This document shows, piece after piece, positions 1,587 to 47,084 of a stretch of 64,000 bases of DNA. This DNA is from Algoriphagus machipongonensis. Its GTDB lineage: Bacteria; Bacteroidota; Bacteroidia; Cytophagales; Cyclobacteriaceae. The stretch is from NCBI RefSeq assembly GCF_000166275.1, contig NZ_CM001023.1, positions 3,723,001 through 3,787,000 of the forward strand. Reading direction: 5' to 3'. The notes beneath the pieces were generated by a model. It ran no database searches. It was not told the DNA's origin and saw only the letters and a list, made by a program, of their open reading frames with translations. Made by a program: the position numbers and the translations under genes. Position 1 is the first letter of the stretch. The number at the start of each line of letters is the position of its first letter.

Positions 1587-1645
1587 AACATGGAATTAGC
1601 TGCCGTAAAATTCCAATATTAGTTTTTGGTAAGACTTTACTAATT

Positions 1646-1661
1646 CTTAAGATTACCTTAA
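1646..1661 (-). promoter_or_regulatory. Putative response-regulator box upstream of the metal pump
   Basis: On the plus strand it reads CTTAAGATTACCTTAA. On the coding (minus) strand it is the direct repeat TTAAG-N6-TTAAG with an 11-bp period, the form usual for OmpR/PhoB-type regulators. It differs at one of 16 positions from the box at 3812-3827 upstream of the regulator gene itself. It lies about 60 bp before the pump start. Confidence 0.55.
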
Positions 1662-1674
1662 ATATGTTGTTAGG

Positions 1675-34619: not shown

Positions 34620-34801
34620 TGATAATAAGCTAAAAGTCTGCAATCCTACCCAATTTGTGAAGAGTGGTACAGATCTAAGATATATTCAAGTATTATTGGG
34701 TCACAATTCCAGTAAAAAGACAGTCCCGATAGCTATCGGGATACACTCATGTCAGTGAAAAGAAACTTAGACTAATCCGCTTCCCGTTCGATGATCTATA
34801 G
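34620..34801 (+). pseudogene. 3' remnant 1 of an integron-integrase-like tyrosine recombinase
   Basis: Two frames together carry the C terminus of a tyrosine recombinase. SGTDLRYIQVLLGHNSSKKT (box II region with the LLGH motif) is followed, after a frame-shifting palindrome at 34724-34741, by YTHVSEKKLRLIRFPFDDL and a TAG at 34799. A YTHV-x(n)-SP/FP-(L/F)D ending is typical of integron integrases rather than XerC/D. The upstream part, including the catalytic Arg and HxxR regions, is missing or unreadable. It reads in the same direction as the cassettes. The region 34512-34619 holds nothing recognisable. Confidence 0.7.
34724..34741. repeat. Short palindrome inside integrase remnant 1
   Basis: TCCCGATAGCTATCGGGA, an 18-bp perfect palindrome lying between the codons for KKT and YTHVS. 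It replaces the two codons expected there and shifts the frame. The same position in remnant 2 holds a related hairpin (35671-35688). Confidence 0.85.
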
Positions 34802-34814
34802 AAAGACAAAACCT

Positions 34815-34879
34815 GTGACTAGCTGATTCAATTCGGCACATAGTCACTATAAAACAGTAACAATAAACAAGTTGTAAAC
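34815..34879 (+). other. attI-like site 1
   Basis: A hairpin (GTGACTA 34815-34821 / TAGTCAC 34841-34847) is followed by the 19-bp sequence GTAACAATAAACAAGTTGT (34857-34875), which recurs exactly at 35814-35832. Both copies lie just downstream of an integrase 3' end and end in GTTGT, the start of a cassette. That is the position and form expected of an integron attI. The crossover would be after G34871. Confidence 0.6.
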
Positions 34880-34911
34880 AAGCTAATAAAAATCAGTAAT
34901 TGAATTAAAAT

Positions 34912-35634
34912 ATGGCGAAAATCCCAATCGAAATTGAAAAAATAAATACCGCATATCGAAATTTTAGCTCAAATGATAATGCAGAAAATGAAAGGACAGA
35001 ATATTTAGTTTCAATAATTGAGAAAGGACAGAATTGGAATAAAACTTTCCGTTGCGGACTAAAAGAATTGACAAAATTGCGTGACGAAATTTCGGATATA
35101 ATTGACAAGACAACGACTGCCGAAAAGCTAAATATCACAAATGATAGAGCAAAAATACTTGACAAACATTATGAAGATGATGAATTGTGTCAAGGTTGTA
35201 ATTATAAACTAACCCATAACTGTTTGACTTGTATTTTCGATTTACAAAGTCCACTCGAAAGAAAACTATTTCTTGCGTTGAACAAAAAATACATCCGATT
35301 TGAGGCTCAATATCCTCTAAACTGGAAAGGAGAAAATATTTCCATCGCTGGAAAAACCTATGATAATCCCAGAAATAATTTCAAAGATGTTTTAACTGTA
35401 GCGGATTTTTATATTGAGAAAAAAGGAGTCAAATTATGTGTTTATACAGATGGACACACTTATCACGAAAGAACTGAAGAACAAGCTCAAAGAGATAAGC
35501 GAATTGATAGGAAATTACAAGAACTTGGTTTTCAAGTATTGAGATATACAGGAAAAGATGTAAACGAAAACACAGATTTAATAGTCAATGAAATCAAAAA
35601 GTGGATAGAAAAGCCAGTTTACAATAACGTATAA
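34912..35634 (+). CDS. Cassette 0: DUF559/Vsr-like PD-(D/E)XK nuclease-fold protein
   Basis: 240 residues. A Cys cluster CQGCNYKLTHNCLTC (about 93-107) suggests a zinc knuckle. It is followed by a nuclease-like core: SPLERKLFLALNK (acidic residue), VADFYI, then LCVYTDGHTYHE and RDKRIDRKLQELGFQVLRYT, the order seen in DUF559/very-short-patch-repair-type endonucleases. This could be a DNA-cutting defence or repair enzyme; that is inferred from fold motifs only. The C terminus (PVYNNV) reads through a degenerate R'' box (GTTTACAAT, 35617-35625). It is bracketed by two integrase-remnant/attI-like units. Confidence 0.6.
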   Translation: MAKIPIEIEKINTAYRNFSSNDNAENERTEYLVSIIEKGQNWNKTFRCGLKELTKLRDEISDIIDKTTTAEKLNITNDRAKILDKHYEDDELCQGCNYKLTHNCLTCIFDLQSPLERKLFLALNKKYIRFEAQYPLNWKGENISIAGKTYDNPRNNFKDVLTVADFYIEKKGVKLCVYTDGHTYHERTEEQAQRDKRIDRKLQELGFQVLRYTGKDVNENTDLIVNEIKKWIEKPVYNNV

Positions 35635-35640
35635 AAACAG

Positions 35641-35748
35641 TAGGGGAGCATAATTCAAGTAAGACGACAGTCCCGATTTCTATCGGGATACACCCATGTG
35701 AGTCAGAAGAGTCTTCAAAAAATCAGGAGTCCATTTGACGACTTATAA
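35641..35748 (+). pseudogene. 3' remnant 2 of an integron-integrase-like recombinase
   Basis: EHNSSKTT, a hairpin TCCCGAT-TTCT-ATCGGGA (35671-35688) that shifts the frame, then YTHVSQKSLQKIRSPFDDL and TAA at 35746. The IRSPFDDL end closely resembles the RSPLD-type C terminus of integron integrases. It is clearly related to remnant 1 but diverged from it (e.g. SQKSLQKIRSP against SEKKLRLIRFP), so the two are not a very recent duplication. It lies only 6 bp after the stop of the cassette 0 gene. Confidence 0.7.
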
Positions 35749-35768
35749 AAATATAAAATAAGGTAAAA

Positions 35769-35836
35769 CCGTATCTATCAGCCCAAAAACAGGTAAGTAT
35801 ATACGGAAAAACCGTAACAATAAACAAGTTGTGGTG
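35769..35836 (+). other. attI-like site 2
   Basis: A hairpin (CCGTAT 35769-35774 / ATACGG 35801-35806) is followed by GTAACAATAAACAAGTTGT (35814-35832), identical over 19 bp to attI-like site 1. It continues GTTGTGGTG, the first box of cassette 1, whose complement CACCACAAC ends that cassette at 36391-36399. Confidence 0.6.
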
Positions 35837-35856
35837 CATATAAGACGACATTGGCA

Positions 35857-36381
35857 ATGATAATAAGACAAGAAACCCAAAATGACCATAAGGAAGTCTT
35901 TAGCGTAATTGAAAGTGCTTTTAAAGACGCTGAATTCGCTGACCACACTGAACAGTTTTTGGTCGAACGATTAAGAAAATCGGACGCTTTCATTCCTGAA
36001 CTATCAATGGTAGCGGAAATTGACGGTAAAACAGTTGGACATATTCTATTGACAAAACTTAAAATCAAGAACGAGTCGAATGAATTCGATTCATTGGCGT
36101 TGGCACCTGTTTCTGTATTACCTGAATTTCAAGGAAAAGGAATTGGTGGAAAACTAATACTTGAATCGCACAAAAAGGCAAAAGAATTAGGGTATAAATC
36201 AATCGTTCTTCTAGGACACGAAAAATACTATCCAAGATTCGGATATGAACAAGCAGATAAGTACGGAATAGAATTGCCATTTGAAGTTCCGAAAGAGAAT
36301 TGTATGGTAATTGAATTAATAGAAAATGGACTGAAAGGAGTAAATGGAATGGTTGAATATCCAAAAGAGTTTAATGAATAA
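35857..36381 (+). CDS. Cassette 1: GNAT-family N-acetyltransferase
   Basis: 174 residues from ATG 35857 (TTG 35851 is also in frame). It has the acetyl-CoA binding pattern LAPVSVLPEFQGKGIGGKLI (motif A, Q-x-x-G-x-G) and the C-terminal VLLGHEKYYPRFGYEQA typical of this GNAT group. The acceptor is unknown. It starts 29 bp after the attI-like crossover, the first-cassette position where expression is usually strongest in integrons. Confidence 0.85.
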   Translation: MIIRQETQNDHKEVFSVIESAFKDAEFADHTEQFLVERLRKSDAFIPELSMVAEIDGKTVGHILLTKLKIKNESNEFDSLALAPVSVLPEFQGKGIGGKLILESHKKAKELGYKSIVLLGHEKYYPRFGYEQADKYGIELPFEVPKENCMVIELIENGLKGVNGMVEYPKEFNE

Positions 36382-36390
36382 AAAATACGA

Positions 36391-36523
36391 CACCACAACA
36401 ACGCATATAGCTTATGGCGGGTGAACGGCTGCCAGGAAGGTTTTCGCTCCTTAGCCAGCTTTGGTTTCGGTGGACAGGAAAGTGCTTCGAAACCGCCACA
36501 AAGCCATATGCAAACCGTTAGCC
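36391..36523 (+). repeat. attC-like site 1 (133 bp)
   Basis: R'' CACCACAAC (36391-36399) and R' GTTAGCC (36517-36523). Inner arms GCATATAGCTTATGGCGG / GCCACAAAGCCATATGC pair with mismatches. R'' is complementary to the start of cassette 1 (GTTGTGGTG), not to the R' that follows it. Confidence 0.8.
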
Positions 36524-36566
36524 TTCACCAAAAAAAATATGGATGCTAAAAAAATAATATTTTCAA

Positions 36567-37025
36567 ATGCCTGGCTTTAACTTGATAATTGGACTTTTAA
36601 TAATTTTAGGGGTAACTAAAATAACCACTGAAAGATTTCCTTATACTAAAAAACAAAGAGTTACAAATTTTTTTATACTAATTGCAGGATTTATTATTCT
36701 TTATTTTGGCTACAAATGTCGAGTTGAAAACAATGGCTTTATTCTTGGCGTTTTACCAAATTTTTTAACTGGTCTTTTTTATCCTTCTCTAATAGTTATG
36801 TCAGGATTCAGGGTGAAGAATTTCTTGAAAAAAGAAGAATATTCATGGATAATATTCACCCTTTTTATTTGGACATTATATGAGTTTATGCTGATTTTCG
36901 ATGGAAGGTTCTTTGATATATTTGACATAATTGCAACTTTAATTGGATCAGTAATCAGTGTACCAATACTTCTTATGTTAACAAGTTCTACACATAATAC
37001 ACCTAATGATCACTATGACAACTGA
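36567..37025 (+). CDS. Cassette 2: small multi-pass membrane protein, unknown
   Basis: 152 residues with about four hydrophobic segments (NLIIGLLIILGVTKI, FFILIAGFIILYFGY, WIIFTLFIWTLYEFMLIF, IIATLIGSVISVPILLMLT). No family recognised. It lies 50 bp into its cassette and is followed by attC-like site 2. Confidence 0.6.
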   Translation: MPGFNLIIGLLIILGVTKITTERFPYTKKQRVTNFFILIAGFIILYFGYKCRVENNGFILGVLPNFLTGLFYPSLIVMSGFRVKNFLKKEEYSWIIFTLFIWTLYEFMLIFDGRFFDIFDIIATLIGSVISVPILLMLTSSTHNTPNDHYDN

Positions 37026-37080
37026 AACTTTCAATCATGAATATTTTTTCAGTATTAAAAATGAATTATTAATAAAGGCG

Positions 37081-37143
37081 AAAGGCTAACACCGTGTATA
37101 GTTCATGCCCTTCGGGACACGCACCATACACAAACCGTTGTGG
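37081..37143 (+). repeat. attC-like site 2 (63 bp)
   Basis: R'' AAAGGCTAAC (37081-37090) and R' GTTGTGG (37137-37143), with arms GTGTATAGTTC / GCACCATACAC and an inner GCCC/GGG turn. R'' is complementary to GTTAGCCTT at the start of cassette 2. Confidence 0.82.
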
Positions 37144-37160
37144 GCAATTCTGAGAACAAA

Positions 37161-37811
37161 ATGAAGCTTCCTGCATTTAATGCAAAAATTTTTGTACCGT
37201 TTAAAGGAATCGATTGGAGGATCAATTCTTCAAAATTAATGTATGGAGGTTATATTCTATTCTTGATGATTGGTTTAATAGCCAGCCAAGTGAATTTATC
37301 TTCAAACATTGATTATTCAATTAGGACTTTACTTTTTTCTATATTAGGAATGATTTTTTATTCAGCCTATTGGGGTTCCAGGGAAAAGGAAAAGAAATAT
37401 GGGAAATTAGAGGGTGAACTTGAAATATGCGTGGAAAGAATCAGAATAAATGACTATTCGTATTCTTGGACTGAAATAGAAAAATTTGAGTTTAGAACTT
37501 TTCAAGTAGTTGATGAAAAATTATGGTCTGAAACGTATCCGATTGCAAGATACTACGGTGGACCAGCTTATTCTCAAGGTGTGAATAACTTCATTGAGTT
37601 TATGGTTGATGATAAGAAAGTGAAAGTTTTTTTTCAATTGGAAACCCCTTCACACAAAGTTGAGCTAAAGAGAATGATGCGTTTGCTTCTTTTTCATGAT
37701 CGAATAGATCTCTCCACTACCTATCTGGGATTAAACTTGGATTATGAGGAAATTCAAAAATTGAAAAAAGCCAAAGCTAAGTATTTTATCGACCTGGAGG
37801 CACAATTCTAA
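37161..37811 (+). CDS. Cassette 3: membrane-anchored protein, unknown
   Basis: 216 residues from ATG 37161; the in-frame GTG at 37140 is part of the attC R' box and is an unlikely start. Two TM helices near the N terminus (YGGYILFLMIGLIASQV and TLLFSILGMIFYSAYWG) are followed by a soluble domain (YSWTEIEKFEFRTFQV) resembling PH-like proteins of two-helix plus domain type. Function unknown. Confidence 0.6.
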   Translation: MKLPAFNAKIFVPFKGIDWRINSSKLMYGGYILFLMIGLIASQVNLSSNIDYSIRTLLFSILGMIFYSAYWGSREKEKKYGKLEGELEICVERIRINDYSYSWTEIEKFEFRTFQVVDEKLWSETYPIARYYGGPAYSQGVNNFIEFMVDDKKVKVFFQLETPSHKVELKRMMRLLLFHDRIDLSTTYLGLNLDYEEIQKLKKAKAKYFIDLEAQF

Positions 37812-37885
37812 TTTTACAAGACTTCTCAATTGGATGATAAAATAACCTGTACAAAAATCCTACAAGTTCAATATCAAGAAGAAAA

Positions 37886-38018
37886 GCCCATAACATCACC
37901 TTGGAATACAGCGGGCTGTTTCGAGTTAATAGAAAGTTTCATATTTGTAATAAGTTAGTAGTAGGCTGAATAGGGATGGACTTTGAATGCCCGCCGTTTC
38001 CAAGCCAAACCGTTAGCC
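37886..38018 (+). repeat. attC-like site 3 (133 bp)
   Basis: R'' GCCCATAAC (37886-37894) and R' GTTAGCC (38012-38018). Inner arms CTTGGAA/TTCCAAG and GCGGGC/GCCCGC pair perfectly. R'' matches the complement of the cassette 3 start (GTTGTGGGC) with one transition. Confidence 0.78.
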
Positions 38019-38038
38019 TTCATTACATTTAAAACTGA

Positions 38039-38773
38039 ATGACAGAAACTATACATAAGCAACTAACAATAAAACGGGGAATTCTGGCCATTGTGGTCAT
38101 GTACGCATGTCAACTCCTAGCCGGAATTATTATCTCTTATGGGTTTAAGTTCTTTTCGCCTAATAATGAAGTTCCTATCGAGATCTTAGGACTCACTTCT
38201 GCTTTGCTAAGTGGCATCATGATAATTACTTTTTTCTGGTGGGATATCCGTAAATCAGGTGAACCTTTTTATCCTGAGATAGGACTTCAAAAAAGTAAGA
38301 TTAAAAAAAGCAAAGGTCTTTTATTGGTTTTATCAGCATTGATATTAACGCACTTTTTGGCATGGATATATAGATCATTAATCTTACCTGCCTTAGGTCA
38401 CGAAGGAATCATTGGAGGCGGCTCCAAGATGTTTAGCTACATCAAAACAAATGGAGGATCACTTGAAATGTCTGGTTTTTTACTACTAGCACTCCTTGTT
38501 GGACCCATTATGGAAGAAGTTGTATTTAGGGGATATTTGCAATCTTCACTAGCAAAGAAAATACCTTCCTGGGCTGCTATATTGATAACTTCTATTGTTT
38601 TTACCGTTGGTCATAATCCCATGATATTATGGCCCATGTATTTTCTGTATAGTGCAACATGGGGTTGGATCTTATTACGCACAGGCTCATTAAAAATGGC
38701 GATCCTAATTCATGTTCTAAGTAACTTATTTTATGCTGTTGTAGGTTTTGCGGGGTGGGATATTCTTGCCTAA
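38039..38773 (+). CDS. Cassette 4: CPBP-family intramembrane glutamic protease
   Basis: Multi-pass membrane protein of 244 residues with the CPBP/Abi motifs: EExxxR in GPIMEEVVFRGYLQ, a His in VGHNPMIL and the final HVLSN. Related proteins process prenylated substrates in eukaryotes and act in bacteriocin immunity or unknown roles in bacteria. It starts 27 bp into its cassette. Confidence 0.87.
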   Translation: MTETIHKQLTIKRGILAIVVMYACQLLAGIIISYGFKFFSPNNEVPIEILGLTSALLSGIMIITFFWWDIRKSGEPFYPEIGLQKSKIKKSKGLLLVLSALILTHFLAWIYRSLILPALGHEGIIGGGSKMFSYIKTNGGSLEMSGFLLLALLVGPIMEEVVFRGYLQSSLAKKIPSWAAILITSIVFTVGHNPMILWPMYFLYSATWGWILLRTGSLKMAILIHVLSNLFYAVVGFAGWDILA

Positions 38774-38874
38774 TTTGAATATGAGTCAAATAGTATTAAT
38801 TGCTTTCCATGATAGTAAAAAGCTTACAAGATTCAGTTTTGATGCTCCATATTGCAGTAACAAATAAAACGAAA

Positions 38875-38936
38875 GGCTAACAAAACCTAAACTGCATTAA
38901 AACGCAGTTTAGCCAAACCGTTGTGCTTCATTATAA
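38875..38936 (+). repeat. attC-like site 4 (62 bp)
   Basis: R'' GGCTAAC (38875-38881) and R' GTTGTGC (38930-38936). Perfect inner arms CTAAACTGC / GCAGTTTAG with a short loop. AAGGCTAAC is complementary to the cassette 4 start GTTAGCCTT. Confidence 0.85.
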
Positions 38937-38950
38937 GAAACCGCTAACCA

Positions 38951-39709
38951 ATGATAAAATTCTTTAGAAAAATTAGACAAAACTTACTTTCAGAAGGTAA
39001 AACTGGAAAGTATTTGAAATATGCCATCGGAGAAATTATCCTTGTTGTTATTGGCATTTTAATGGCTGTACAGATTAATAATTGGAATGAAAATAGAAAG
39101 AATAATATAATTAAACAGTCATTACTTGAAAATCTAATTGTTGATCTGAAAAAGGACATTGAAAATTTAGAAGCCCTTAATAATGTTAATACAAATGCTG
39201 AAAAAGAAGGATTTTACCTCGCTTCATTTTTAGATAATACCTTGAATGAGGTAGATACTTTAAGGCTTGCAAATTCAATCATTTTTTGTGGATATATTCC
39301 AAATAAATCTATCATATCATCTACCTATAATGACCTCATTAATAGTAATAATATTCACTTATTCAATGATGTAAAATTAAAAAGGCTTTTAGATGATTAT
39401 TATGTGCCAAATTTATGGTCTGAACGTATGAATGCCCGAATTCTTAAAACCGTTTGGTATGATTATCGTGATGAAATGTCAAAATTTCATAGTCCTAAAC
39501 TTTATCAGGATTTTTATGAAATACAAAAATATATAGACGCCTATAATGCTTCAAAATACGATGTGCAATGGTATAAAATCCAGCATAATGAGTACCTGAA
39601 AACCCAAGTGGGAATGATTGGAGCATACAGAATTTTAATAAGGCAAGATTTTGAAGCTTACATTCAAAAAGCTAAAGTAATAACAAACTATTTAGAAAAT
39701 TTAAAATAA
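38951..39709 (+). CDS. Cassette 5: DUF6090-family protein
   Basis: 252 residues with the DUF6090 opening: basic IKFFRKIRQNLLSEGKTGKY, then one TM helix in YAIGEIILVVIGILMAVQIN and NNWNE, and a helical soluble domain. Function unknown; the family is common and often multi-copy in marine Bacteroidota. A broken paralogue, with the same 5' leader, lies at 46878-47084 in the last cassette. Confidence 0.8.
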   Translation: MIKFFRKIRQNLLSEGKTGKYLKYAIGEIILVVIGILMAVQINNWNENRKNNIIKQSLLENLIVDLKKDIENLEALNNVNTNAEKEGFYLASFLDNTLNEVDTLRLANSIIFCGYIPNKSIISSTYNDLINSNNIHLFNDVKLKRLLDDYYVPNLWSERMNARILKTVWYDYRDEMSKFHSPKLYQDFYEIQKYIDAYNASKYDVQWYKIQHNEYLKTQVGMIGAYRILIRQDFEAYIQKAKVITNYLENLK

Positions 39710-39713
39710 CAAA

Positions 39714-39844
39714 AGCACAACATTGTATAAAAATAATAGCGGTTCAATCGCTAAACGAAAATAATTAAATGGAAAAAGGTCTGTGTTTAATCGAAAAATT
39801 AAAGCCTTAAAACCCGCTACTATTCTTATACCAGACCGTTGTGG
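39714..39844 (+). repeat. attC-like site 5 (131 bp)
   Basis: R'' AGCACAAC (39714-39721) and R' GTTGTGG (39838-39844). Inner arms AATAATAGCGG / CCGCTACTATT pair with one mismatch. AAGCACAAC complements the start of cassette 5 (GTTGTGCTT). Confidence 0.82.
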
Positions 39845-39879
39845 GCAATTTAAACCAACTGCCAGAAGCTATATACTGA

Positions 39880-40542
39880 ATGAGGAAAATTATATTAATA
39901 CTACCCTTTTTTCTACTGACTATTCTAGGTTGTAAAGCACAGAATAATCAACCTTCCAATTTTATTCCTAAAGGATATGCCGAATTTGAAAAATATTTTG
40001 GAGACCTAAATAAAGATGGATTGGAGGATTGTGTTTTGATAATCAAAAAGTCTGATACAGCAAACATTGTGACTAATCGTTTTGACAAAAAAGTTGACAG
40101 AAATAGACGTGGAATTGTTGTCTTATTTAAAAATGAGAAAGGTTATGAACTTGCCGATAAAAACTACAATTGCTTTTCGTCAGAAAATGAAGATGGTGGA
40201 GTTTATTTTCCACCAGAATTATGGATTAAAATTGAAAACGAAAAACTTTATATCCATTACGGACACGGCAGATATGGATATTGGGAATATACCTTCCGAT
40301 ATCAAAACTCGAATTTTGAATTAATTGGATATGATTCAAGTAGCAATCGTGGACCAATCACAATGACAGAAACAAGTATCAACTTCTTGACAAAAAGAAA
40401 ATTAGTCAAAGAGAATACAAATGAAAATGCAGAAGGTGGAGATGAAATATTTAAGGAAACTTGGAATAATATTGAAATAGATAATTTAATCAAACTATCT
40501 GAAATAAAAGACTTTGACGAATTAGATATGTATAATTATTAA
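39880..40542 (+). CDS. Cassette 6: lipoprotein with FG-GAP-like calcium loop
   Basis: 220 residues with signal peptide and lipobox (LLTILGC, Cys at about 18). The segment FGDLNKDGLEDCVLII resembles the DxNxDGxxD calcium loop of FG-GAP/VCBS repeats. The rest is beta-rich with no further family assignment. It is probably surface or periplasmic. Its attC-like site is interrupted by an IS110-family element. Confidence 0.65.
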   Translation: MRKIILILPFFLLTILGCKAQNNQPSNFIPKGYAEFEKYFGDLNKDGLEDCVLIIKKSDTANIVTNRFDKKVDRNRRGIVVLFKNEKGYELADKNYNCFSSENEDGGVYFPPELWIKIENEKLYIHYGHGRYGYWEYTFRYQNSNFELIGYDSSSNRGPITMTETSINFLTKRKLVKENTNENAEGGDEIFKETWNNIEIDNLIKLSEIKDFDELDMYNY

Positions 40543-40552
40543 ATAAAAAACT

Positions 40553-40578
40553 GCCCACAACAATGGCTTCCATGAATA
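40553..40578 (+). repeat. attC-like site 6, left half (R''-L'')
   Basis: R'' GCCCACAAC (40553-40561) complements the cassette 6 start GTTGTGGGC. L'' ATGGCTTCCATGAATA pairs with TACTCATAGCCCA at 42132-42144 on the far side of the IS, with a 3-nt bulge. Confidence 0.7.
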
Positions 40579-40599
40579 ATCAAAAGTTCATTTTCTAGC

Positions 40600-40927
40600 A
40601 TTTTTTCTTTGTTTTGGCTGTTTTTGAGTTGATTGCCTGTTTTTTGGACTGATTGAAAGAAGTCAAGAATGGACAAAGCGCTGCCTTGCGGGTGGGTTGT
40701 TCACTCGCCTTGTTCTTTACTTCTACAGTATCAGTCCATATCTTGCGATCATCAAATACAAGCCATGCTTCCATCAGAGATCCATGCTATTTATGGTCTC
40801 AGTTTCCGGTTAGTTTAGTAAGTGCTCCAGCCCCATACTATAATAGAGTTCCTAATTATTGGACTCACACAGTGTTGAGAGGTCTGGAGCTTTTTGATGG
40901 GCTTGATCCAATGGTCTCTGCCACGGA
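40600..40927 (-). ncRNA. Candidate IS110/IS1111 guide (bridge/seek) RNA region
   Basis: A non-coding stretch of about 330 bp downstream of the transposase stop, where IS1111-type members encode their target-selecting RNA. It contains GCTTCCAT (40767-40774), which also occurs in the interrupted attC arm (40566-40573). The ends and fold of the RNA could not be determined by eye; the family-based expectation is the main support. Confidence 0.3.
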
Positions 40928-41983
40928 CTAAGTTGAATATCCTACCTGGTAAGGTTCACCCGTTTTTAGGACATGATATATTCTTGACAAGAGCTTTCTT
41001 GCTATGATAACTATGGCTCGTTTGCCGGTATGTCTTTGCAATAGTTCCTCGTATCGATTCAGCATCACCGGATCGCGTTGGACAGTGGTCCAGGCACATT
41101 CGATCAGTGAGCTTCTCAGTCCCTGATGATGGCGATAAGTCATGTATCCTTTTCGGTCTGATTCACCGCTGGAATGGACCATCGGTTTGAGCCCGATATA
41201 ACTGTTGAAGTGTTTGAAATTCCTGAAACGGTTAACATCCTCTATTTCGGTGAGCAATTGTACTGTTGTCAAAGGACCTATCCCGGGAATCTGTCTCAGC
41301 AGCTTGGAGTTTGCCTTGTATTTGGATTTTCGCTGTAGCGCACGGACAGAAATGGAGACCTTCAAAAAGTGACGGTAGGTAAATTCAAACTGATCGAGCA
41401 ATAAATCCATTACCAGTCTGCTGCTGTCCGAAGGGAGCTCTACGATGGCCAGCCAGTCCAGAAAATCCTTTGTCCAATAAGGATTATCGTATTTAGGAGG
41501 TGTTTCTATCCCGTTTTGAAGGAGTTTGTCCTTGATCCTGTTTTTTACTCTAACCAAGTCTGCCCAGAGCCTTTTGCGATATCGGAAGAGCTGGCGATCA
41601 CCTTCTGTTTCCAGGGTAGGCACGTGGATTCCTCGCAGCAGTCCTGCACGGAGAGCTTTGGCCATTTTGCGACTATCCACAGGATCGGTTTTTTCACTAC
41701 TTTCTTTATTGGTAGTGGGAAGATCAGCTGGATTGATCACCAGACATTCATATCCGAAACTCTTTAGATCCCGATAGATCCAAAAACCAAACTTACAGGC
41801 TTCATAACAGCAAATGATCTGATATTTTGGAAAAAACTTATCCAAGTAAGACTTCAAGGCTTTGGGATCAGGTGCCTGACTGAAGGTTTTATGATGGCAA
41901 TTGGCTGTAATGATGCAAACGCTCCACTGGCGCTTGTGCACATCAATACCAATGAATAACTTAGGAGAAACTTCGGTGTCCAT
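40928..41983 (-). CDS. IS110-family DEDD transposase
   Basis: 351 residues. The N-terminal RuvC-like DEDD domain shows D14 in IGIDVHKRQW, E61 in CCYEACKFG, and D100/D103 in EKTDPVDSRKMA. The C-terminal transposase_20 domain has LLRQIPGIGPLTTVQLLTEI (helix-hairpin-helix-like) and the serine motif HSSGESDRKG. The length and all key residues look intact, so it may be active. It is antisense to the cassettes. Confidence 0.93.
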   Translation of the reverse strand: MDTEVSPKLFIGIDVHKRQWSVCIITANCHHKTFSQAPDPKALKSYLDKFFPKYQIICCYEACKFGFWIYRDLKSFGYECLVINPADLPTTNKESSEKTDPVDSRKMAKALRAGLLRGIHVPTLETEGDRQLFRYRKRLWADLVRVKNRIKDKLLQNGIETPPKYDNPYWTKDFLDWLAIVELPSDSSRLVMDLLLDQFEFTYRHFLKVSISVRALQRKSKYKANSKLLRQIPGIGPLTTVQLLTEIEDVNRFRNFKHFNSYIGLKPMVHSSGESDRKGYMTYRHHQGLRSSLIECAWTTVQRDPVMLNRYEELLQRHTGKRAIVIIARKLLSRIYHVLKTGEPYQVGYST

Positions 41984-42131
41984 GATATATTCTTTTTGGT
42001 TCTGTCCTTAAAACGAACCAGATTATATCATGGGAACTATAAGTAATTGCTTGTTCTCGCCTACCTCTGAAAATCCTCGCGGATTTTCAGTTTGGTCTGT
42101 ACTTGCAAAGTTAAGTGCTAAACCACGCAAC

Positions 42132-42154
42132 TACTCATAGCCCAAGCGTTGTAG
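42132..42154 (+). repeat. attC-like site 6, right half (L'-R')
   Basis: L' TACTCATAGCCCA followed by AGC and R' GTTGTAG (42148-42154). It completes the site whose left half is at 40553-40578. Confidence 0.7.
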
Positions 42155-42173
42155 CCAATATAAAATCATTATA

Positions 42174-42764
42174 ATGGAAAGAAGAAAATTCATTAAAAAC
42201 ACTACTTTTTTTGGTAGCGCTTTATTGATTGGATGTAATGGAAATCCTTCAGAAACTGAATCAATAAAACAAAACGTCAACGCAGATACACTTTACATTC
42301 CACCGAATGACAAACGAATAAAACTTAGCTATGAACAAACGGGTGACCAACTGACAACCGTCGAACTGAAGCTGCCACCAAAAATGTGTGGGCCAGCTCC
42401 TCATTCCCACGATGAGCTAGACGAAATAGTTCGTGTATTATCAGGTACTTTGACCGTAATGGTGGAAGATTCAATAGTTAAAATCCCAGAAGGTGGCTGG
42501 CATTTTAGACCGAGAAAAAAGATTCACGGATTTTGGAATGAAGAAGATGAACCTGTACATTTTATAGAGATTTACCCAAACCAAAATTTTGACGTAATGC
42601 TACAAAGAATATGGGATTTACGTAATAGATTGATTAAAAGCGGAATTTCGCTAGACTCCAAAGCGGCTTGGGAAAAAGTTGATGAGATTCAAAAAGAATG
42701 GGGAATTAAAATGTATCACGAAAGACGTAAAGAAATAATCGATAAGTACGGATTGAGAGGTTAA
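42174..42764 (+). CDS. Cassette 7: exported cupin-domain protein
   Basis: 196 residues. The N terminus MERRKFIKNTTFFGSALLIGC combines a twin-arginine-like motif (RRKFIK) with a lipobox, suggesting Tat export and lipid anchoring. The cupin core shows PAPHSHDELDEIVRVLSGT (metal-binding His and Glu) and the second motif GGWHFRPRKKIHGFWNEED. The substrate is unknown. Confidence 0.8.
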   Translation: MERRKFIKNTTFFGSALLIGCNGNPSETESIKQNVNADTLYIPPNDKRIKLSYEQTGDQLTTVELKLPPKMCGPAPHSHDELDEIVRVLSGTLTVMVEDSIVKIPEGGWHFRPRKKIHGFWNEEDEPVHFIEIYPNQNFDVMLQRIWDLRNRLIKSGISLDSKAAWEKVDEIQKEWGIKMYHERRKEIIDKYGLRG

Positions 42765-42773
42765 ATAAAAACT

Positions 42774-42839
42774 GGCTACAACAATATACATGACGATCAT
42801 GCTCCTAACGTCGCACGCCGCATGTACTAACCGTTACAC
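42774..42839 (+). repeat. attC-like site 7 (66 bp)
   Basis: R'' GGCTACAAC (42774-42782) and R' GTTACAC (42833-42839), with arms TACATG / CATGTA. TGGCTACAAC complements the cassette 7 start GTTGTAGCCA over 10 bp. Confidence 0.82.
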
Positions 42840-42855
42840 ACAATTATCAACCACT

Positions 42856-43779
42856 ATGGTAAAACTATTTCTCACTTTAACTGTAGCCTTACTAAGCCAG
42901 ATCACAGTTCTTGGTCAGGCGAACCAACGATTTAATTCATTCGAAGAGGCATTAAGAGACCCTGAGAAAGTTAAATGGCTAGACTTGGTTTGTGAAGATA
43001 TTCCAACAATTACGGAACAAATTGATAATTTCCCGAACCTTGAATCCTTTTACCTTACTGGATGCGAACTCGATGAACTTCCGGAAGGTCTTGGACAGGT
43101 TCAGAGTTTAGGGTTATTGAACGTTCAGGACAACAACTTAAGATCATTGCCGACAGAGTTAAAGGATTTGAAGCAGCTAACAGTTGCAAATCTGAGGAAT
43201 AATAACTTTGAAGAATTACCAGAAGTTCTACTGACCCTACCCAATCTGAGAGAAATAGATTTATCTGGCAATGCACAACTGGATCTGAATAAAACTTTGA
43301 ACTCGCTTTCTAAAGTTCAAAAACTCGACTTCTTGTATCTTAGTGGACTAGATATTTCCATAATTCCATTGAATGTCAAGGAGCTAAAACTATTGGAAGA
43401 ACTGCATTTATCAAGTAATCCCAATCTGGATTTGCCTAATGTTTTTTCTCCGTTATCAACTACTCCCAATTTGAAAATACTGGTCTTATCAGATAACCAG
43501 ATAACCTCTATCCCGAAAGAGATAACTTTGCTCAATCAATTGAAGGGATTGGTTCTCGACAATAATCCAAATATTGAGATCGACATACTAACCGAACACC
43601 TTGAACAATTACCCAATCTCAAGGTACTATTGCTCAGAAAGAACGAACTGACCAAACTGCCTGAAAATTTAGATGGCCTTCTGAACTTAGCCGTTTTAGA
43701 ACTTAGTGAAAACAATTTCTCCGAATCGGAACAAACAAGGATTAAGTCCTTGTTGCCAAATACAAACGTAATATTTTGA
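42856..43779 (+). CDS. Cassette 8: secreted leucine-rich-repeat protein
   Basis: 307 residues from ATG 42856; the longer frame from 42790 starts inside the attC-like site and is unlikely. A signal peptide (LFLTLTVALLSQITVLGQ) precedes about nine LRR units of the bacterial type, e.g. LNVQDNNLRSLPTELKDLKQ and LVLSDNQITSIPKEITLLNQ. It is probably a binding or adhesion scaffold; the ligand is unknown. Confidence 0.85.
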   Translation: MVKLFLTLTVALLSQITVLGQANQRFNSFEEALRDPEKVKWLDLVCEDIPTITEQIDNFPNLESFYLTGCELDELPEGLGQVQSLGLLNVQDNNLRSLPTELKDLKQLTVANLRNNNFEELPEVLLTLPNLREIDLSGNAQLDLNKTLNSLSKVQKLDFLYLSGLDISIIPLNVKELKLLEELHLSSNPNLDLPNVFSPLSTTPNLKILVLSDNQITSIPKEITLLNQLKGLVLDNNPNIEIDILTEHLEQLPNLKVLLLRKNELTKLPENLDGLLNLAVLELSENNFSESEQTRIKSLLPNTNVIF

Positions 43780-43787
43780 AAAAAAAA

Positions 43788-43909
43788 GTGTGTAACAAGC
43801 ACTAAAATGAATATGCGAACTGAGACCTTTGATAAGACAATAATACGAACCAGAAACTTCAGTGCTTCTAGCAGCTGGGGCGCATACTCATTTTAGTTGG
43901 TCGTTGTGT
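43788..43909 (+). repeat. attC-like site 8 (122 bp)
   Basis: R'' GTGTGTAAC (43788-43796) and R' GTTGTGT (43903-43909). Inner arms CTAAAATGAATATGCG / CGCATACTCATTTTAG pair at 15 of 16. R'' complements the cassette 8 start GTTACACAC. Confidence 0.85.
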
Positions 43910-43922
43910 GGCATTGAAAAAA

Positions 43923-44252
43923 ATGAGAGAAATATCTAAGTCAGAATTGAAATTGGTTAGCTATCTGCTTGAAAAGGCTGGTAGACAGACTCATATTCCG
44001 AAGATGGTAAGGCCATTACAGGATGGAGGAATGGGATCCATATCTTTTGACTTGAAAGGATCACGAAAACGAGACTCTCAAATAATTGGAGGATCGTTTA
44101 AGGATTCTGATGGTGTTCTTGTAGACTTTGAATTAACTGCTGACGAAAACAATGAAGTATACGAGCTGGATTTATGGAAAGTGGACTTTTCAATACTACT
44201 TAGATATCCTCAGCTGAATGAAATAAAAATAACGCCACACAACAATGGCTAA
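43923..44252 (+). CDS. Cassette 9: DUF6984-like small protein
   Basis: 109 residues from ATG 43923 (the GTG at 43908 lies in the R' box). Features LVSYLLEKAG and DGGMGSISFDL resemble DUF6984, a family of small cytosolic proteins of unknown function. The C terminus (ITPHNNG) is encoded by the R'' box and L'' arm of the following attC-like site. Confidence 0.65.
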   Translation: MREISKSELKLVSYLLEKAGRQTHIPKMVRPLQDGGMGSISFDLKGSRKRDSQIIGGSFKDSDGVLVDFELTADENNEVYELDLWKVDFSILLRYPQLNEIKITPHNNG

Positions 44253-44307
44253 AATGCATGCCCGACCTACCCGACCAAAGCACGACATTTTAGCCTGGAC
44301 GTTGTGG
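44234..44307 (+). repeat. attC-like site 9 (74 bp)
   Basis: R'' GCCACACAAC (44234-44243) and R' GTTGTGG (44301-44307), with perfect arms GGCTAAAATG / CATTTTAGCC. R'' is a perfect 10-bp complement of the cassette 9 start GTTGTGTGGC. Confidence 0.88.
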
Positions 44308-44349
44308 GGCATTAGGATTTAAAATTGTAAGAGCGGAAAAGAAAGTTAA

Positions 44350-44829
44350 ATGAAAGAAGTTCAATTAACAGACGAAGAAATATCTATTCTTCAACAAGAA
44401 ATTAATCATGCTGAGGATTATCGAACAAAGAAACTGAAAGAAGTAACGCTCATGGTTATCGGAGGGGTCATACTTTCAGCTACAATTTTTATTTTCAACA
44501 AAGGATTAAAGTTTAGTCAGATAATTATTCCATGTGCTGGACTTGGACTACTGATGATATTAATTTCTTTAATTGCTTGGTTTTTTGCGTACAAGCCTAT
44601 AAAGAAAATGAAAAACGATTTATCTAATCAGACTAAGCTAATTGGGCATTCTGAAATTGAATCAATAAATGTTTTTAACAGAAAAATTACTCTAGTAGAT
44701 GGGACCAAGGTTTGGCAAATGAATCAACATCAAGAAAAATGGAAAAAGGGGGATTTGATAATTTACAGTATGACCCCTAGTAATGAATATATATTTGAAT
44801 GTGTGAAAACGCCCCACAACAAAAGCTAG
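44350..44829 (+). CDS. Cassette 10: two-helix membrane protein, unknown
   Basis: 159 residues with two hydrophobic helices (VTLMVIGGVILSATIFIF and IIIPCAGLGLLMILISLIAW) flanked by charged N- and C-terminal regions. The tail is a soluble beta-rich part of about 60 residues. No family recognised. The last residues (TPHNKS) are encoded by the attC R'' box. Confidence 0.6.
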   Translation: MKEVQLTDEEISILQQEINHAEDYRTKKLKEVTLMVIGGVILSATIFIFNKGLKFSQIIIPCAGLGLLMILISLIAWFFAYKPIKKMKNDLSNQTKLIGHSEIESINVFNRKITLVDGTKVWQMNQHQEKWKKGDLIIYSMTPSNEYIFECVKTPHNKS

Positions 44830-44943
44830 CGCCAAGCCTAAGTTGAAAAGAAATTTGGTTGCTTTTTGCTCTAAGTTCTAACAATGAAACACGAATAGAA
44901 AACGCAAACATGGCCGGCCTGACCGCTAGCCAAACCGTTAGCA
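44811..44943 (+). repeat. attC-like site 10 (133 bp)
   Basis: R'' GCCCCACAAC (44811-44820) and R' GTTAGCA (44937-44943), with arms GCTAGCG / CGCTAGC. R'' is a perfect 10-bp complement of the cassette 10 start GTTGTGGGGC. Confidence 0.85.
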
Positions 44944-44971
44944 ACAATTGAAATAAGAAATAAAGTTGGTG

Positions 44972-45841
44972 ATGAATATCTACAAAATACATAAAGCTAA
45001 TCCAGATATTTTTACTCAATTGTCTTTAAGAGACCAATTATTCTGTTACTACCAATGCCCTCAAAGGGAGAAAATCATTCAGCTTTATTCTAATCACAAT
45101 CAATTGACATTTACATTAAGTGGAAAAAGAATAGTAAGACAAGGAGATAATAAATGGATACTTAGTCAAGAAACTGGATTTTTGGTAAAGAGGGGCGCTT
45201 TTCTTCAAGAATTGCCTAATAATTATTCAGATTGGGTAGTATTAGTTTTATACTTAAAGGACGATTATCTAAAGAAAGTTTTTGAGGAATTCAGACCACA
45301 TTTTTCACTAGGGAATTTACCTAAAGTTGATTCGGAAATAATTCAAGAATTTACCATTGACGAAAAAATCCAAAACAGTTACAACAGCCTGCTTCCTTAT
45401 TTCTCGAAACCACAATTATTGCCAGATTCTATTTTTGAGGGGAAATTCAAAGAATTGTTGTTTAACATCCTTATCCATCCAAATAATAAAAAAATTCTGG
45501 CCTATATCAATCAAATCATTGACAATTATACCATACCGATTTGGGAAATAATGGAAACCAATTATTATTATGATTTGAGAATCTCAGAATTTGCGGAAAT
45601 TGCTAACAGAAGTACAAGCACCTTCAGACGAGAATTTGAAAAACATTATCAAACTACTCCTGGTAAATGGATAACAGCTAAAAGACTAGAAAAAGCTACT
45701 ATACTGCTCCAAACTTCGAACAAAACTATCAGCGAAATAACTTTTGATTGTGGGTTTAAGAACATATCTCATTTCAGCAGAATTTTCAAAGAAAAGTTTC
45801 AATTGTCACCCACTGAATATCGTGAGCATAACAAACAATGA
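44972..45841 (+). CDS. Cassette 11a: AraC-family transcriptional regulator
   Basis: 289 residues from ATG 44972. The N-terminal half is cupin-like or of unknown sensing type. The C-terminal AraC domain carries two helix-turn-helix motifs (FAEIANRSTSTFRREFEKHY and ISEITFDCGFKNISHFSRIF) and ends KEKFQLSPTEYREH. It shares its cassette with the downstream secreted cupin gene (107-bp gap) and may regulate it. Confidence 0.9.
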   Translation: MNIYKIHKANPDIFTQLSLRDQLFCYYQCPQREKIIQLYSNHNQLTFTLSGKRIVRQGDNKWILSQETGFLVKRGAFLQELPNNYSDWVVLVLYLKDDYLKKVFEEFRPHFSLGNLPKVDSEIIQEFTIDEKIQNSYNSLLPYFSKPQLLPDSIFEGKFKELLFNILIHPNNKKILAYINQIIDNYTIPIWEIMETNYYYDLRISEFAEIANRSTSTFRREFEKHYQTTPGKWITAKRLEKATILLQTSNKTISEITFDCGFKNISHFSRIFKEKFQLSPTEYREHNKQ

Positions 45842-45948
45842 ATAGTACCTGAGTAATAAAGTAAAAAGATTGACTTTTTAAGAAAATCTCAACTCATAAT
45901 GGATTTCTAAATTGGTGGTATACTTATTAATCACTAAAATTTAGAACA

Positions 45949-46305
45949 ATGAAGTATCTATTATTATTATCCATGCTGTTTTTATACTCTATTACCTTCG
46001 GACAAATTCCTGTAATTAATGAGCCAGAAGGTAAAACAGTAATTGAAAATGACAAAATGAAGGTAGTTGAACATGTCAGTCAACCGAAAGGTGACGTATG
46101 TGGATTAGGAATGCACCATCATGAACCACATTTGACTATTGTTTTAACTGATGCAAAAGTTCGGATTACACCTGAAAATGGGGAACCTCAAGAAATGGAA
46201 GTGAAATCCGGAACATCAATTTGGTTTGATGCCGCTGAAACTCATTCGGTTTCAAACATTGGAAACCAACCCACAAAAATGATTTTGGTATATTTGAAAG
46301 AATAA
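45949..46305 (+). CDS. Cassette 11b: secreted small cupin protein
   Basis: 118 residues. The signal peptide MKYLLLLSMLFLYSITFGQ precedes one cupin domain with metal ligands in GLGMHHHEPHLTIVLTDAKV and GTSIWFDAAETHSVSN. It is probably a small-molecule-binding or isomerase-type cupin in the periplasm. Second gene of the only two-gene cassette in the array. Confidence 0.8.
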   Translation: MKYLLLLSMLFLYSITFGQIPVINEPEGKTVIENDKMKVVEHVSQPKGDVCGLGMHHHEPHLTIVLTDAKVRITPENGEPQEMEVKSGTSIWFDAAETHSVSNIGNQPTKMILVYLKE

Positions 46306-46316
46306 AAGACAAAGCT

Positions 46317-46449
46317 GTTGCCAACATTTTGTATAAGTAATGGCTGTTAAAAAATTAAATTTCAAGGCTTGTATCCCGCTCAAACTTTGTAGCGAGTTGA
46401 CAGTAAATACCACGCAATCTGCCATTACTTATACAATTTACCGTTGTGC
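46317..46449 (+). repeat. attC-like site 11 (133 bp)
   Basis: R'' GTTGCCAAC (46317-46325) and R' GTTGTGC (46443-46449), with a perfect 16-bp arm pair TTGTATAAGTAATGGC / GCCATTACTTATACAA. R'' matches the complement of the cassette 11 start (GTTAGCAAC) with one mismatch. Confidence 0.85.
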
Positions 46450-46463
46450 ATCATTATCAGAAA

Positions 46464-46874
46464 CCACTAATGAGTGAAAAAGGGGTCGCCGAAAACCTAG
46501 CAGAGTAGGTATAAAATCAAACATAAAAATTATGAATCTTATAGTACTTTATCCACAACCAACAGACCTAGAAAAATTTGAATCAGAATATTCTGCTCAC
46601 GTTAAATTACTTCACGAGAAAACAGGAATACCCAACGATGTAAAACCTTATACAGTAACTAAATTTTTACAAGGACCTGAAGGTAAGCCACCTTTTTATC
46701 AAATGTTTACAATGCCTTTTGATTCGCTTGAAGCATTAAATGAAGTAATGTCTTCGTCAGGAATGCAAGAAGTTGCAGCAGACGCAAATAGGATTTCAAC
46801 GGGAGGTGCACCAACAATCTTAATCGGAAAATTAAGTTAAAAAATAAGTCACTATTTTTAAGACTAACCACTAA
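46464..46874. repeat. 7-bp direct repeat flanking the EthD segment
   Basis: CCACTAA occurs at 46464-46470 and 46868-46874. The sequence before the first and after the second copy, joined together, matches the uninterrupted leader of cassette 5 (ATTATAAGAAACCGCTAACC). The intervening 0.4 kb with the EthD gene thus looks inserted. Confidence 0.5.
46532..46840 (+). CDS. Cassette 12: EthD-family protein
   Basis: A 102-residue dimeric alpha/beta-barrel (ferredoxin-like) protein. It shows MNLIVLYPQPTDLEKFESEY at the N terminus and the conserved central FYQMFTMPFDSLEAL of the EthD group. Such proteins act as small mono-oxygenase-like or accessory proteins; the substrate is unknown. The segment carrying it seems to have been inserted into the leader of a DUF6090 cassette. 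Confidence 0.82.
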   Translation: MNLIVLYPQPTDLEKFESEYSAHVKLLHEKTGIPNDVKPYTVTKFLQGPEGKPPFYQMFTMPFDSLEALNEVMSSSGMQEVAADANRISTGGAPTILIGKLS

Positions 46875-46877
46875 CCA

Positions 46878-47084
46878 ATAATAAAATTCTTTAGAAAAAT
46901 TAGACAAAAAATACTGACCGAAAATAAGTTCAGTAAATATCTAGTTTATGCAATTGGAGAAATTATTCCAGTAGTAATTGGAATATTGATTGCCTTAAGT
47001 ATTAATAACTGGAATGAGCAGAGTAAAGAATCAAAATTGGAACTGGAAATATTAATTGGATTTTCAAAAGGTATTCGGACTTAG
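46878..47084 (+). pseudogene. Broken DUF6090 gene (paralogue of the cassette 5 gene)
   Basis: The frame IKFFRKIRQKILTENKFSKY, YAIGEIIPVVIGILIAL, INNWNEQ matches the N terminus of the cassette 5 protein, but the start codon is ATA instead of ATG and the frame ends at TAG 47082 after about 68 codons. The DNA upstream (CACTAACCAATAATAAAATT) also matches the cassette 5 leader. Only the N-terminal quarter is left. Confidence 0.8.

Follow-up and report, generated by a model that had tools for sequence, protein, structure and literature searches.

Does the run of gene-sized modules in the chromosome of Algoriphagus machipongonensis, all on one strand and each closed by a palindrome, belong to an integron, and if so to the kind run by an IntI integrase? 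The window that we analyse is a stretch of 64,000 nt from this chromosome (NZ_CM001023.1, positions 3,723,001 to 3,787,000). Its modules C1 to C11 are an integron-type cassette array, as an earlier reading made from the sequence alone (the sequence-only reading) had held; the standard IntI integron is not the class of system seen here. The window very probably carries the relic of an integron-like gene-cassette capture system of a distinct class found in Bacteroidota. It is a relic in that it has two decayed recombinase 3' ends, an attI-like site after each, and an IS110-family element in one hairpin. The intact system, judged from the sequences of relatives, appears to combine a tyrosine recombinase other than IntI with differently marked hairpins.

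Features of the window (window coordinates, strand)

34648..34801, +, delta-int 1: decayed tyrosine recombinase 3' end, frame broken near the CCCGATAGCTATCGGGA palindrome
34802..34879, +, attI-like site 1: opening GTT at 34871, ~70 nt after delta-int 1
34871..35630, +, C0: a single ORF, 34912-35634; 1 mismatch in the closing box, which no full hairpin follows
35631..35748, +, delta-int 2: decayed 3' end of a second recombinase copy
35749..35836, +, attI-like site 2: CGG-AAAAA-CCG palindrome; opening GTT at 35828
35828..36516, +, C1: ORF 35851-36381, acetyltransferase-like, all NCBIfam matches below cut-off
36391..36525, +, attC-like site S1
36517..37136, +, C2: ORF 36567-37025, no NCBIfam match
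37082..37145, +, attC-like site S2
37137..38011, +, C3: ORF ending at 37811
37886..38020, +, attC-like site S3
38012..38919, +, C4: ORF 38039-38773, CPBP-type intramembrane protease-like, matches below cut-off
38873..38928, +, attC-like site S4
38920..39837, +, C5: ORF 38951-39709, no NCBIfam match
39713..39846, +, attC-like site S5
39838..42147, +, C6: ORF 39880-40542; IS110-family element within the hairpin
40553..42156, +, attC-like site S6, interrupted by the IS110-family element
40569..42038, -, IS110-family element in the left arm of S6: transposase 40928-41983; ends deduced from the flanks
42148..42832, +, C7: ORF 42174-42764, no NCBIfam match, cupin-like by eye
42774..42841, +, attC-like site S7
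42833..43902, +, C8: ORF ending at 43779, leucine-rich-repeat type, matches below cut-off
43788..43911, +, attC-like site S8
43903..44300, +, C9: ORF ending at 44252
44235..44309, +, attC-like site S9
44301..44936, +, C10: ORF 44350-44829
44812..44945, +, attC-like site S10
44937..46442, +, C11: two ORFs, 44966-45841 (AraC-type regulator-like, below cut-offs) and 45949-46305
46317..46451, +, attC-like site S11
46443..46840, +, last module, truncated: ORF 46532-46840; no closing site by eye

Cassette boxes

The central claim of the sequence-only reading was that the box opening each module is the reverse complement of the box closing the same module. Every box that it named lies at the place given, and a comparison over 9 nt recovers its exact cases (C1, C4, C6, C7, C8, C9 and C10) and those with one mismatch (C0, C3 and C11), adding C2 and C5, absent from its list, as exact. 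Nine of the 11 cassettes C1 to C11 thus agree exactly at their own ends and the other two with one mismatch each, 2 mismatches in total; no random pairing was as good in 200,000 permutations, the pool being slightly degenerate because C2 and C4, and C3 and C6, have common opening boxes. The discordance that it saw between adjacent R'' and R' boxes is equally plain, with 41 mismatches over 10 pairs. Relatives follow the same rule. Of 91 consecutive pairs, 62 agree exactly at their own ends and a further 8 differ at one position; adjacent boxes give 6 exact and 4 one-mismatch cases of 91, and random pairing gives 2.5% and 3.1%.

The longest ORF runs along the array in 179 of 204 cassettes and opposite to it in 6 (19 have no ORF of 50 aa), so that the palindromes placed by the sequence-only reading at gene ends are not divorced from gene boundaries.

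Cassette mobility

One 933-nt cassette is 99.2-99.9% identical in three genomes, apart from a diverged loop in one copy. The shared stretch, which comprises gene and hairpin, runs from the GTT that opens the cassette to the GTT of the following box. The mobility expected of an integron is thereby seen for a single cassette, in three genomes, with the GTT triplet as the limit of resolution. We place the break at the triplet and not inside it because every box starts with GTT; by analogy with known integrons, the break point within it would be G|TT. It occupies the first place in two genomes and, when chained sites are counted, the fourth in another; copies with 100% identity lie interspersed through the arrays of genomes G049, G096 and G028. 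Cassette order therefore varies between genomes, a constant order not having been seen. Cassettes move between genera, including one with a Lnu(H)-like lincosamide nucleotidyltransferase gene. Cassette-type insertion, which the sequence-only reading had proposed, is backed by the 933-nt cassette and by the first-cassette boxes that stand directly behind intact recombinase genes (below).

Hairpin anatomy

The hairpins of the aligned sites, an alignment built on hairpin arms instead of whole sites, carry G-T wobbles at fixed positions and with a marked polarity: 174 favour the bottom strand as against 14, or, by site, 93 against 0 with 9 ties. The 62 sites found without the covariance model give 76 against 10 wobbles and 48 sites against 2, counted on one strand, and 61 background stems, in a both-strand count, give 20 against 20. 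The predicted stem is more stable as the bottom strand in 91 of 96 cases, the better folding of that strand being due to these wobbles. Recombination of the sites as single bottom strands is predicted from this folding. The extrahelical bases of IntI sites are missing from most hairpins: 98 of 123 stems in the alignment have no bulged base and 25 of 123 have one. Site matches extend across 15 Bacteroidota families, for some of which the record is a single weak match.

S6 is the site interrupted by the IS110-family element. Joining its flanks restores a normal 134-nt site with wobble marks at +10 and +15, and the insertion point is GGCT|ATA in the left arm. A second copy in the genome is identical over 40565-42041, and both full copies sit at GGCT|ATA in the left arm of a non-canonical site. 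Elements of the IS1111-attC group, of the IS110 superfamily, are likewise located inside cassette recombination sites; the present case differs in its non-canonical site, with insertion in the left arm at GGCT|ATA.

The recombinase

The window has two attI-like starts, 34871 and 35828, each after a decayed recombinase 3' end. Two tblastn pieces of delta-int 1, 34648-34722 and 34742-34798, matched apart, with a combined E of 1e-10 to the recombinase of locus L067 and 6e-4 to the best IntI. In delta-int 2, 18 of 19 residues over 35689-35745 are identical to the recombinase of locus L101; the upstream piece 35631-35669 is a weak match (E 0.9). Attachment site 1 ends in ATAAACAA|GTT, as does the attI stretch of L101, and the opening box of site 2 matches the closing box of C1 exactly. 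Compared by their C-terminal ends alone, without the N-domain, the remnants are nearer to the recombinases that we call HARP-type (up to 95% identity, best E 2e-11) than to any of 23 IntI rows (best E 6e-4). The genome has no match to recombinases of this type at E ≤ 1e-85, and its three Phage_integrase proteins all lie away from the array. Both recombinase copies seen in the genome being decayed, the array is probably frozen unless an enzyme arrives from outside.

The catalytic domain of the intact enzymes has what we take to be the conserved R, K, HxxR, H and Y. Five of five proteins score 187-221 bits with TIGR02249, below its cut-off of 265. As a finder of the relevant enzyme this model proved unspecific, matching 148 of 148 genomes, 2 of them over the cut-off. 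Inspected by eye, the alpha-I2 insert is absent from all 39 HARP-type rows and all 9 short rows and visible in 18 of 23 IntI rows, the remaining 5 lying outside the inspection. The IntI rows all fall on one side of a branch with support 100/100; their placement among the other recombinases is tentative (branch 83/80, row L003 left out).

Eight of 10 N-domains match the Pfam domain HARP (PF07443) at E ≤ 0.009, all below the gathering cut-off, the best with 24.7 of 25 bits; the Pfam match is missing in L101 and L105, both from the clade nearest to the window remnants. The best PDB sequence match of the N-domain profile is 4o66, the SMARCAL1 HARP domain (E 3e-5); the Foldseek match to HARP is weak (E 0.09). 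For rows beyond the 10 N-domains, a HARP-like domain is suggested by length and alignment. SMARCAL1 carries this domain on an SNF2 motor, whereas here it is fused to a tyrosine recombinase. A search of the published literature, with preprints outside its scope and few subscription papers within it, found no description of HARP-type integrases or wobble-marked sites.

Linkage of recombinase, attI and sites

In relatives the first cassette opens 45-159 nt after the recombinase 3' end, on the same strand. An attI beside the integrase with a first cassette inserted is found at 22 of 33 loci, where the first-cassette box has an exact match within 200 nt (control, 4 of 1056), and in the window beside the decayed copies. 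At the 20 loci hand-picked from the recombinase list, 66 chained sites lie downstream on the recombinase strand (15 loci) and 4 upstream (3 loci); the 32 loci of the named collection with the N-terminal part have 48 downstream and 0 upstream. No chained site was seen in 5 of the 20 and 19 of the 32, several of which have little downstream sequence. Co-occurrence of sites and recombinase at genome level is not significant (49/21/52/26 of 148 genomes, Fisher p 0.73), by a site search of low sensitivity (in each genome 22 candidates were scored out of roughly 500-3,000) and a recombinase count at 1e-85 that takes in forms without the N-domain; even so, this outcome counts against the proposed system. 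No R1 match was obtained in four named genomes that do have chained sites (Flavobacterium aciduliphilum, Rufibacter, Aquiflexum and F. enshiense). Arrays lacking an intact recombinase seem to be common.

Proposed mechanism and alternatives

The recombinase, composed of a HARP-like N-domain, a SAM-like domain and the catalytic domain, would bind the bottom strand of a cassette site folded as a single-stranded hairpin, cut at G|TT and, in the manner of IntI, join the site either to attI or to a second site. Wobbles in place of bulged bases would tell bottom from top strand, and the HARP-like domain may help to recognise or anneal the folded hairpin, taking the place of the IntI alpha-I2 helix. 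Here we infer both the activity of the enzyme and the role of this domain. In its broadest form the proposal has, in our judgement, about an even chance: that Bacteroidota hold a phylum-wide second integron class, whose integrase reads folded single-stranded sites via a HARP-type DNA-structure domain replacing the IntI helix, whose strand choice is made by G-T wobbles 10 and 15 nt from the R'' box replacing bulged bases, and which has a separate origin or preserves a pre-insert IntI state.

Somewhat less probable, though a serious contender, is that the HARP-type recombinase is the mover while strand choice and hairpin recognition belong to the SAM-like and catalytic domains only, the HARP-like domain being otherwise employed, for example in loading at replication forks. 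In its favour, the recombinase was matched without an N-terminal part at two array loci, L127 and L145, and the 280-aa forms lack it. Against it, among the 13 named loci with at least two chained sites, 11 have this part, against 2 of 48 loci without it having such chains, but the latter loci are mostly from other phyla, so the comparison confounds kinship with domain; loci picked for near full-length recombinases are uninformative on the need for it.

We consider it improbable that the window is an ordinary integron, with normal attC sites of a canonical IntI now lost (a plain CALIN). The site anatomy is attC-like in its R boxes, unpaired spacer and hairpin, and the family sample has two true IntI genes (2 of 148 genomes over the TIGR02249 cut-off), yet those two loci have 0 chained sites around them and one isolated R1 match, and the decayed ends in the window favour the HARP-type enzymes. 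The boxes, too, depart from the canonical GTTRRRY, as the sequence-only reading had remarked: 0 opening boxes in the window fit it when read by eye, and 4 of 91 in the set from relatives. The bulge-free majority of stems likewise stands against a first extrahelical base described as absolutely conserved (PMC2727003). It is hardly credible that the hairpins act in RNA, as terminators or stabilising structures placed at gene ends by chance: they do come after genes in the transcribed direction, but their boxes match across the gene and not across the hairpin, the wobble asymmetry favours bottom-strand folding and not the sense of the cassette ORFs, and an Rfam scan of the window gave nothing at gathering level.

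Comparison with known systems

Our preferred reading, a relic of a distinct cassette-capture system, shares features with several described groups. A CALIN is a cluster of attC lacking an integrase (PMC9024848), and the window has at least two attC-like sites with no intact integrase nearby; it differs from the CALIN of that source by its visible decayed recombinase ends, its attI-like sites and its non-canonical sites. The recombinases may belong to the 'Integron-like' tyrosine recombinase subgroup of PMC8138268, the available part of which names neither a HARP domain nor cassette arrays for such members. Bacteroidota are listed among phyla with integrons (PMC8618304, PMC9668308), and IntegronFinder 2.0 counts a single complete integron for Bacteroidetes, that of Salinibacter ruber (PMC9024848). 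If the arrays are as they look, a large Bacteroidota cassette pool has for the most part escaped notice, one possible reason being that the models in use describe other boxes and another recombinase. Treponema integrons resemble the present system in that the integrase is transcribed toward attI, in the cassette direction (PMC3607928); there the integrase is called intI, and the accessible part of that paper names no HARP-like domain or wobble mark.

Chromosomal IntI integrons, such as the Vibrio cholerae superintegron (TIGR02249), are alike in their tandem one-way cassettes, own-end match of R'' and R', unpaired spacer and variable loop, and in an attI beside the integrase, a break at the GTT of the box and predicted bottom-strand folding. 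The present system, if the arrays are as they look, offers a natural test of two tenets for IntI: that recombining single strands with a strand preference requires alpha-I2, and that it requires extrahelical bases. Unlike those integrons, it has a recombinase outside the IntI clade, without alpha-I2 and with an extra HARP-like N-domain, whose gene runs toward attI, and its sites have boxes that rarely fit GTTRRRY and are marked by G-T wobbles, mostly with no extrahelical bases.

Cassette array and hairpin sites

Between 34.6 and 46.5 kb the plus strand of the window carries twelve cassette modules, C0 to C11, followed by a final module that is truncated. Closing boxes are succeeded by a hairpin and then by the next GTT box, an opening box being GTT plus six bases. 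In C1-C11 the closing box is the reverse complement of the module's own opening box, exactly in nine and with one mismatch in two, a fit equalled by 0 of 200,000 random pairings, which bears out the own-end complementarity proposed in the sequence-only reading. Neighbouring modules often have unlike adjoining boxes, as was also proposed (41 mismatches across 10 pairs). A covariance model (R1) trained on ten of the window's attC-like sites recovered those ten on the plus strand (E 6e-9 to 0.003), and its only other match in the window was the mirror image of site S11 (E about 1). Just beyond the array, at 46865-47065, lies by eye an apparent degraded paralogue of the C5 gene. The same genome holds another, smaller group of these sites about 0.37 Mb off (L063; G000:C1:3377000-3390000, minus strand).

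Features in the window, its genome (G000) and relatives
34648-34801, plus strand (as cassettes): tyrosine recombinase 3' end, relic 1, before array
35689-35748, plus strand (as cassettes): tyrosine recombinase 3' end, relic 2, before array
40569-42038: IS110-family element, left arm of S6 hairpin, between GGCT and ATA
G000:C1:3385592-3387078: other full copy of the element, left arm of a cassette hairpin, between GGCT and ATA
L067:3957-4888, L094 and L070, in three genomes: lnu(H)-like cassette

Site S6 is split by an IS110-family element, whose transposase scores 214.9 bits (cut-off 140). Once the flanks of S6 are joined, they make up a normal site of 134 nt, wobble-marked at +10 and +15. A search of the genome for this element returned one further full copy and a partial match of 45 bases. 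With both full copies at the same point of a left arm, the element seems to target cassette hairpins.

Removal of near-duplicates and of stems scoring under 7 left 102 distinct stems from 132 sites. Their top-strand mismatches are A-C or C-A in 174 cases versus G-T or T-G in 14, which means G-T wobbles on the bottom strand; 93 sites lean this way, none the other, and 9 are ties. The wobbles fall 15 nt after AAC in 90 stems and 10 nt after it in 53; S11 in the window has none. This polarity is no product of the covariance model, because 62 sites found by box matching alone show it (76 versus 10; 48 sites versus 2) and 61 background stems elsewhere in the window do not (20 versus 20). In 91 of 96 sites the stem is predicted to be more stable as bottom strand; for entire sites the figure is 80 of 96. 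For IntI (classical integron integrase) sites, a passage of PMC2727003 describes a bulged G as absolutely conserved and essential to strand choice. Since the wobbles are polarised while 98 of 123 stems have no bulged base at all, strand choice is probably written here as wobbles. By eye, at loci L065-L083 and across differing loop sequences, AAC-to-GTT distances seem clustered near 41, 60, 80, 120, 151-160, 176-186, 207 and 232 nt.

Cassette mobility

Exact box matching at 41 loci, including the window (6 cassettes), excised 204 cassettes. The longest ORF runs with the array in 179 and opposite in 6, and 19 have no ORF of 50 aa; the palindromes are thus tied to gene boundaries, as had been supposed. 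One cassette of 933 nt is shared at 99.2 to 99.9% identity by G130, G082 (the window's genus) and G040 (another genus), the common stretch running from the GTT of its own opening box to the GTT of the next. It stands first behind the recombinase in two genomes and fourth in the third (our count), so that the differing cassette order anticipated among relatives is found. Its gene is an lnu(H)-like lincosamide nucleotidyltransferase (452 bits, cut-off 540), and in G130 the hairpin loop has diverged more than the gene. In G049, G096 and G028 identical cassettes recur, interspersed.

Recombinase and entry point

Behind each recombinase relic in the window is an attI-like stretch (a putative entry point) ending in ATAAACAA directly before GTT. 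Over 19-25 residues the relics show up to 95% identity to HARP-type recombinases, tyrosine recombinases with a HARP-like N-terminal domain found in relatives (best combined E 2e-11); the best E against 23 IntI rows is 6e-4. The window's system is a relic, because these ends have decayed, the three Phage_integrase proteins of the genome (4.79 Mb, one contig) all lie outside the array neighbourhood, and the genome holds no relative of the HARP-type recombinase at E <= 1e-85. Both decayed ends show, by eye, CCCGATAGCTATCGGGA or a near variant of this palindrome in corresponding positions (about 34725-34742 and 35671-35688).

At 22 of 33 loci, all having chained sites (stem sites with an exact 9-nt own-end box match to another), the opening box predicted from the first cassette's closing box had an exact match no more than 200 nt from the recombinase 3' end. 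The distances are 45 to 159 nt, accurate to a few bases and counted from where the aligned or open frame ends, and boxes swapped between loci gave 4 matches in 1056. Viewed by eye, many attI-like sites have their own small palindrome, 10-30 nt ahead of the opening GTT.

The HARP-type open frames are 365-400 aa long, reaching up to 570 aa where the N-terminal part is longer, in the order N-domain, Phage_int_SAM_4, Phage_integrase; the alpha-I2 stretch of IntI proteins is absent. With TIGR02249, whose cut-off is 265, five of these proteins reach 187-221 bits, versus 303 for a true IntI of the family and 98 for the genome's own XerC-type protein; with the XerA model NF040815 (cut-off 220) the same five score 217-229, four of them over the cut-off. 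A 73-row tree places IntI in one group (100/100) with all HARP-type rows outside, although the exact branching in the tree is weak. An AlphaFold model (mean pLDDT 86; residues 352-362, near the Tyr, under 50) matches XerA and IntI4 best in fold, and the sequence profile that placed IntI4 first in the PDB included one IntI row. For the N-domain, the SMARCAL1 HARP domain came first in a profile search of the PDB (E 3e-5) and, weakly, with Foldseek (same structure, E 0.09), and Pfam HARP matched 8 of 10 N-domains at E <= 0.009, all under its cut-off. A passage of PMC4035279 gives HARP proteins roles in annealing and fork remodelling, which by analogy would suit a domain meeting DNA hairpins.

A recombinase of 280 aa that lacks the HARP-like domain is seen at L082:5869-6708, L069:4979-5815 and G085:C1. 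G085 has at least 11 similar-scoring copies of it, one directly behind a cassette site, and two such rows adjoin IntI in the tree (99/90).

Distribution and linkage

At E <= 0.01, R1 matched in 70 of the family's 148 genomes, in 10 of the 14 Bacteroidota genomes among named records and in none of the 15 genomes from other phyla. In the phylum it matched 54 of 395, whereas the rough E-values, if they hold, predict about four by chance; the spread over 15 families includes several with one match and three with a best E of only 0.001 to 0.01. This search is poorly sensitive, returning 5 of the 10 array sites in the window's own genome. Genome-level co-occurrence of sites and recombinase was not above chance in the 148 genomes (p 0.73), which an insensitive site search and integrase loss may explain; our argument rests on local linkage, not on presence per genome.

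A first locus set comprised 20 regions around R1 sites, picked partly for a recombinase nearby. The second, 20 regions chosen by hand among the higher entries of the recombinase list with R1 matches unused, has same-strand downstream chained sites at 15 loci (66 sites) and upstream ones at 3 (4 sites). In the named collection, the best 80 of 591 recombinase pattern matches were analysed. For the 32 whose match begins at residue 40 or earlier, 103 kb downstream holds 48 chained sites (13 loci) and 170 kb upstream none; the 48 without the N-terminal part have 8 in 197 kb downstream, at two loci (L127 and L145, each with an array behind the recombinase), and none upstream. Among the named records, those that have two or more chained sites include Algoriphagus ornithinivorans, Algibacter onchidii, Flavobacterium aciduliphilum, F. 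enshiense, Rufibacter, Aquiflexum, Winogradskyella ursingii, Seonamhaeicola aphaedonensis and Alkalitalea saponilacus. A MAG labelled Spirochaetota (L144) carries a HARP-type recombinase and two chained sites. Relatives thus carry the whole machine, whose reaction steps we infer.

Comparison with known integrons

Our literature search found no published description of such a system. Judged from its sequences, it works like an integron. It differs from an IntI integron in the features that define the latter: the recombinase is without alpha-I2 and falls outside the IntI clade, few boxes fit GTTRRRY (4 of 91), and extrahelical bases are missing in most sites. We regard it as a variant form of integron.
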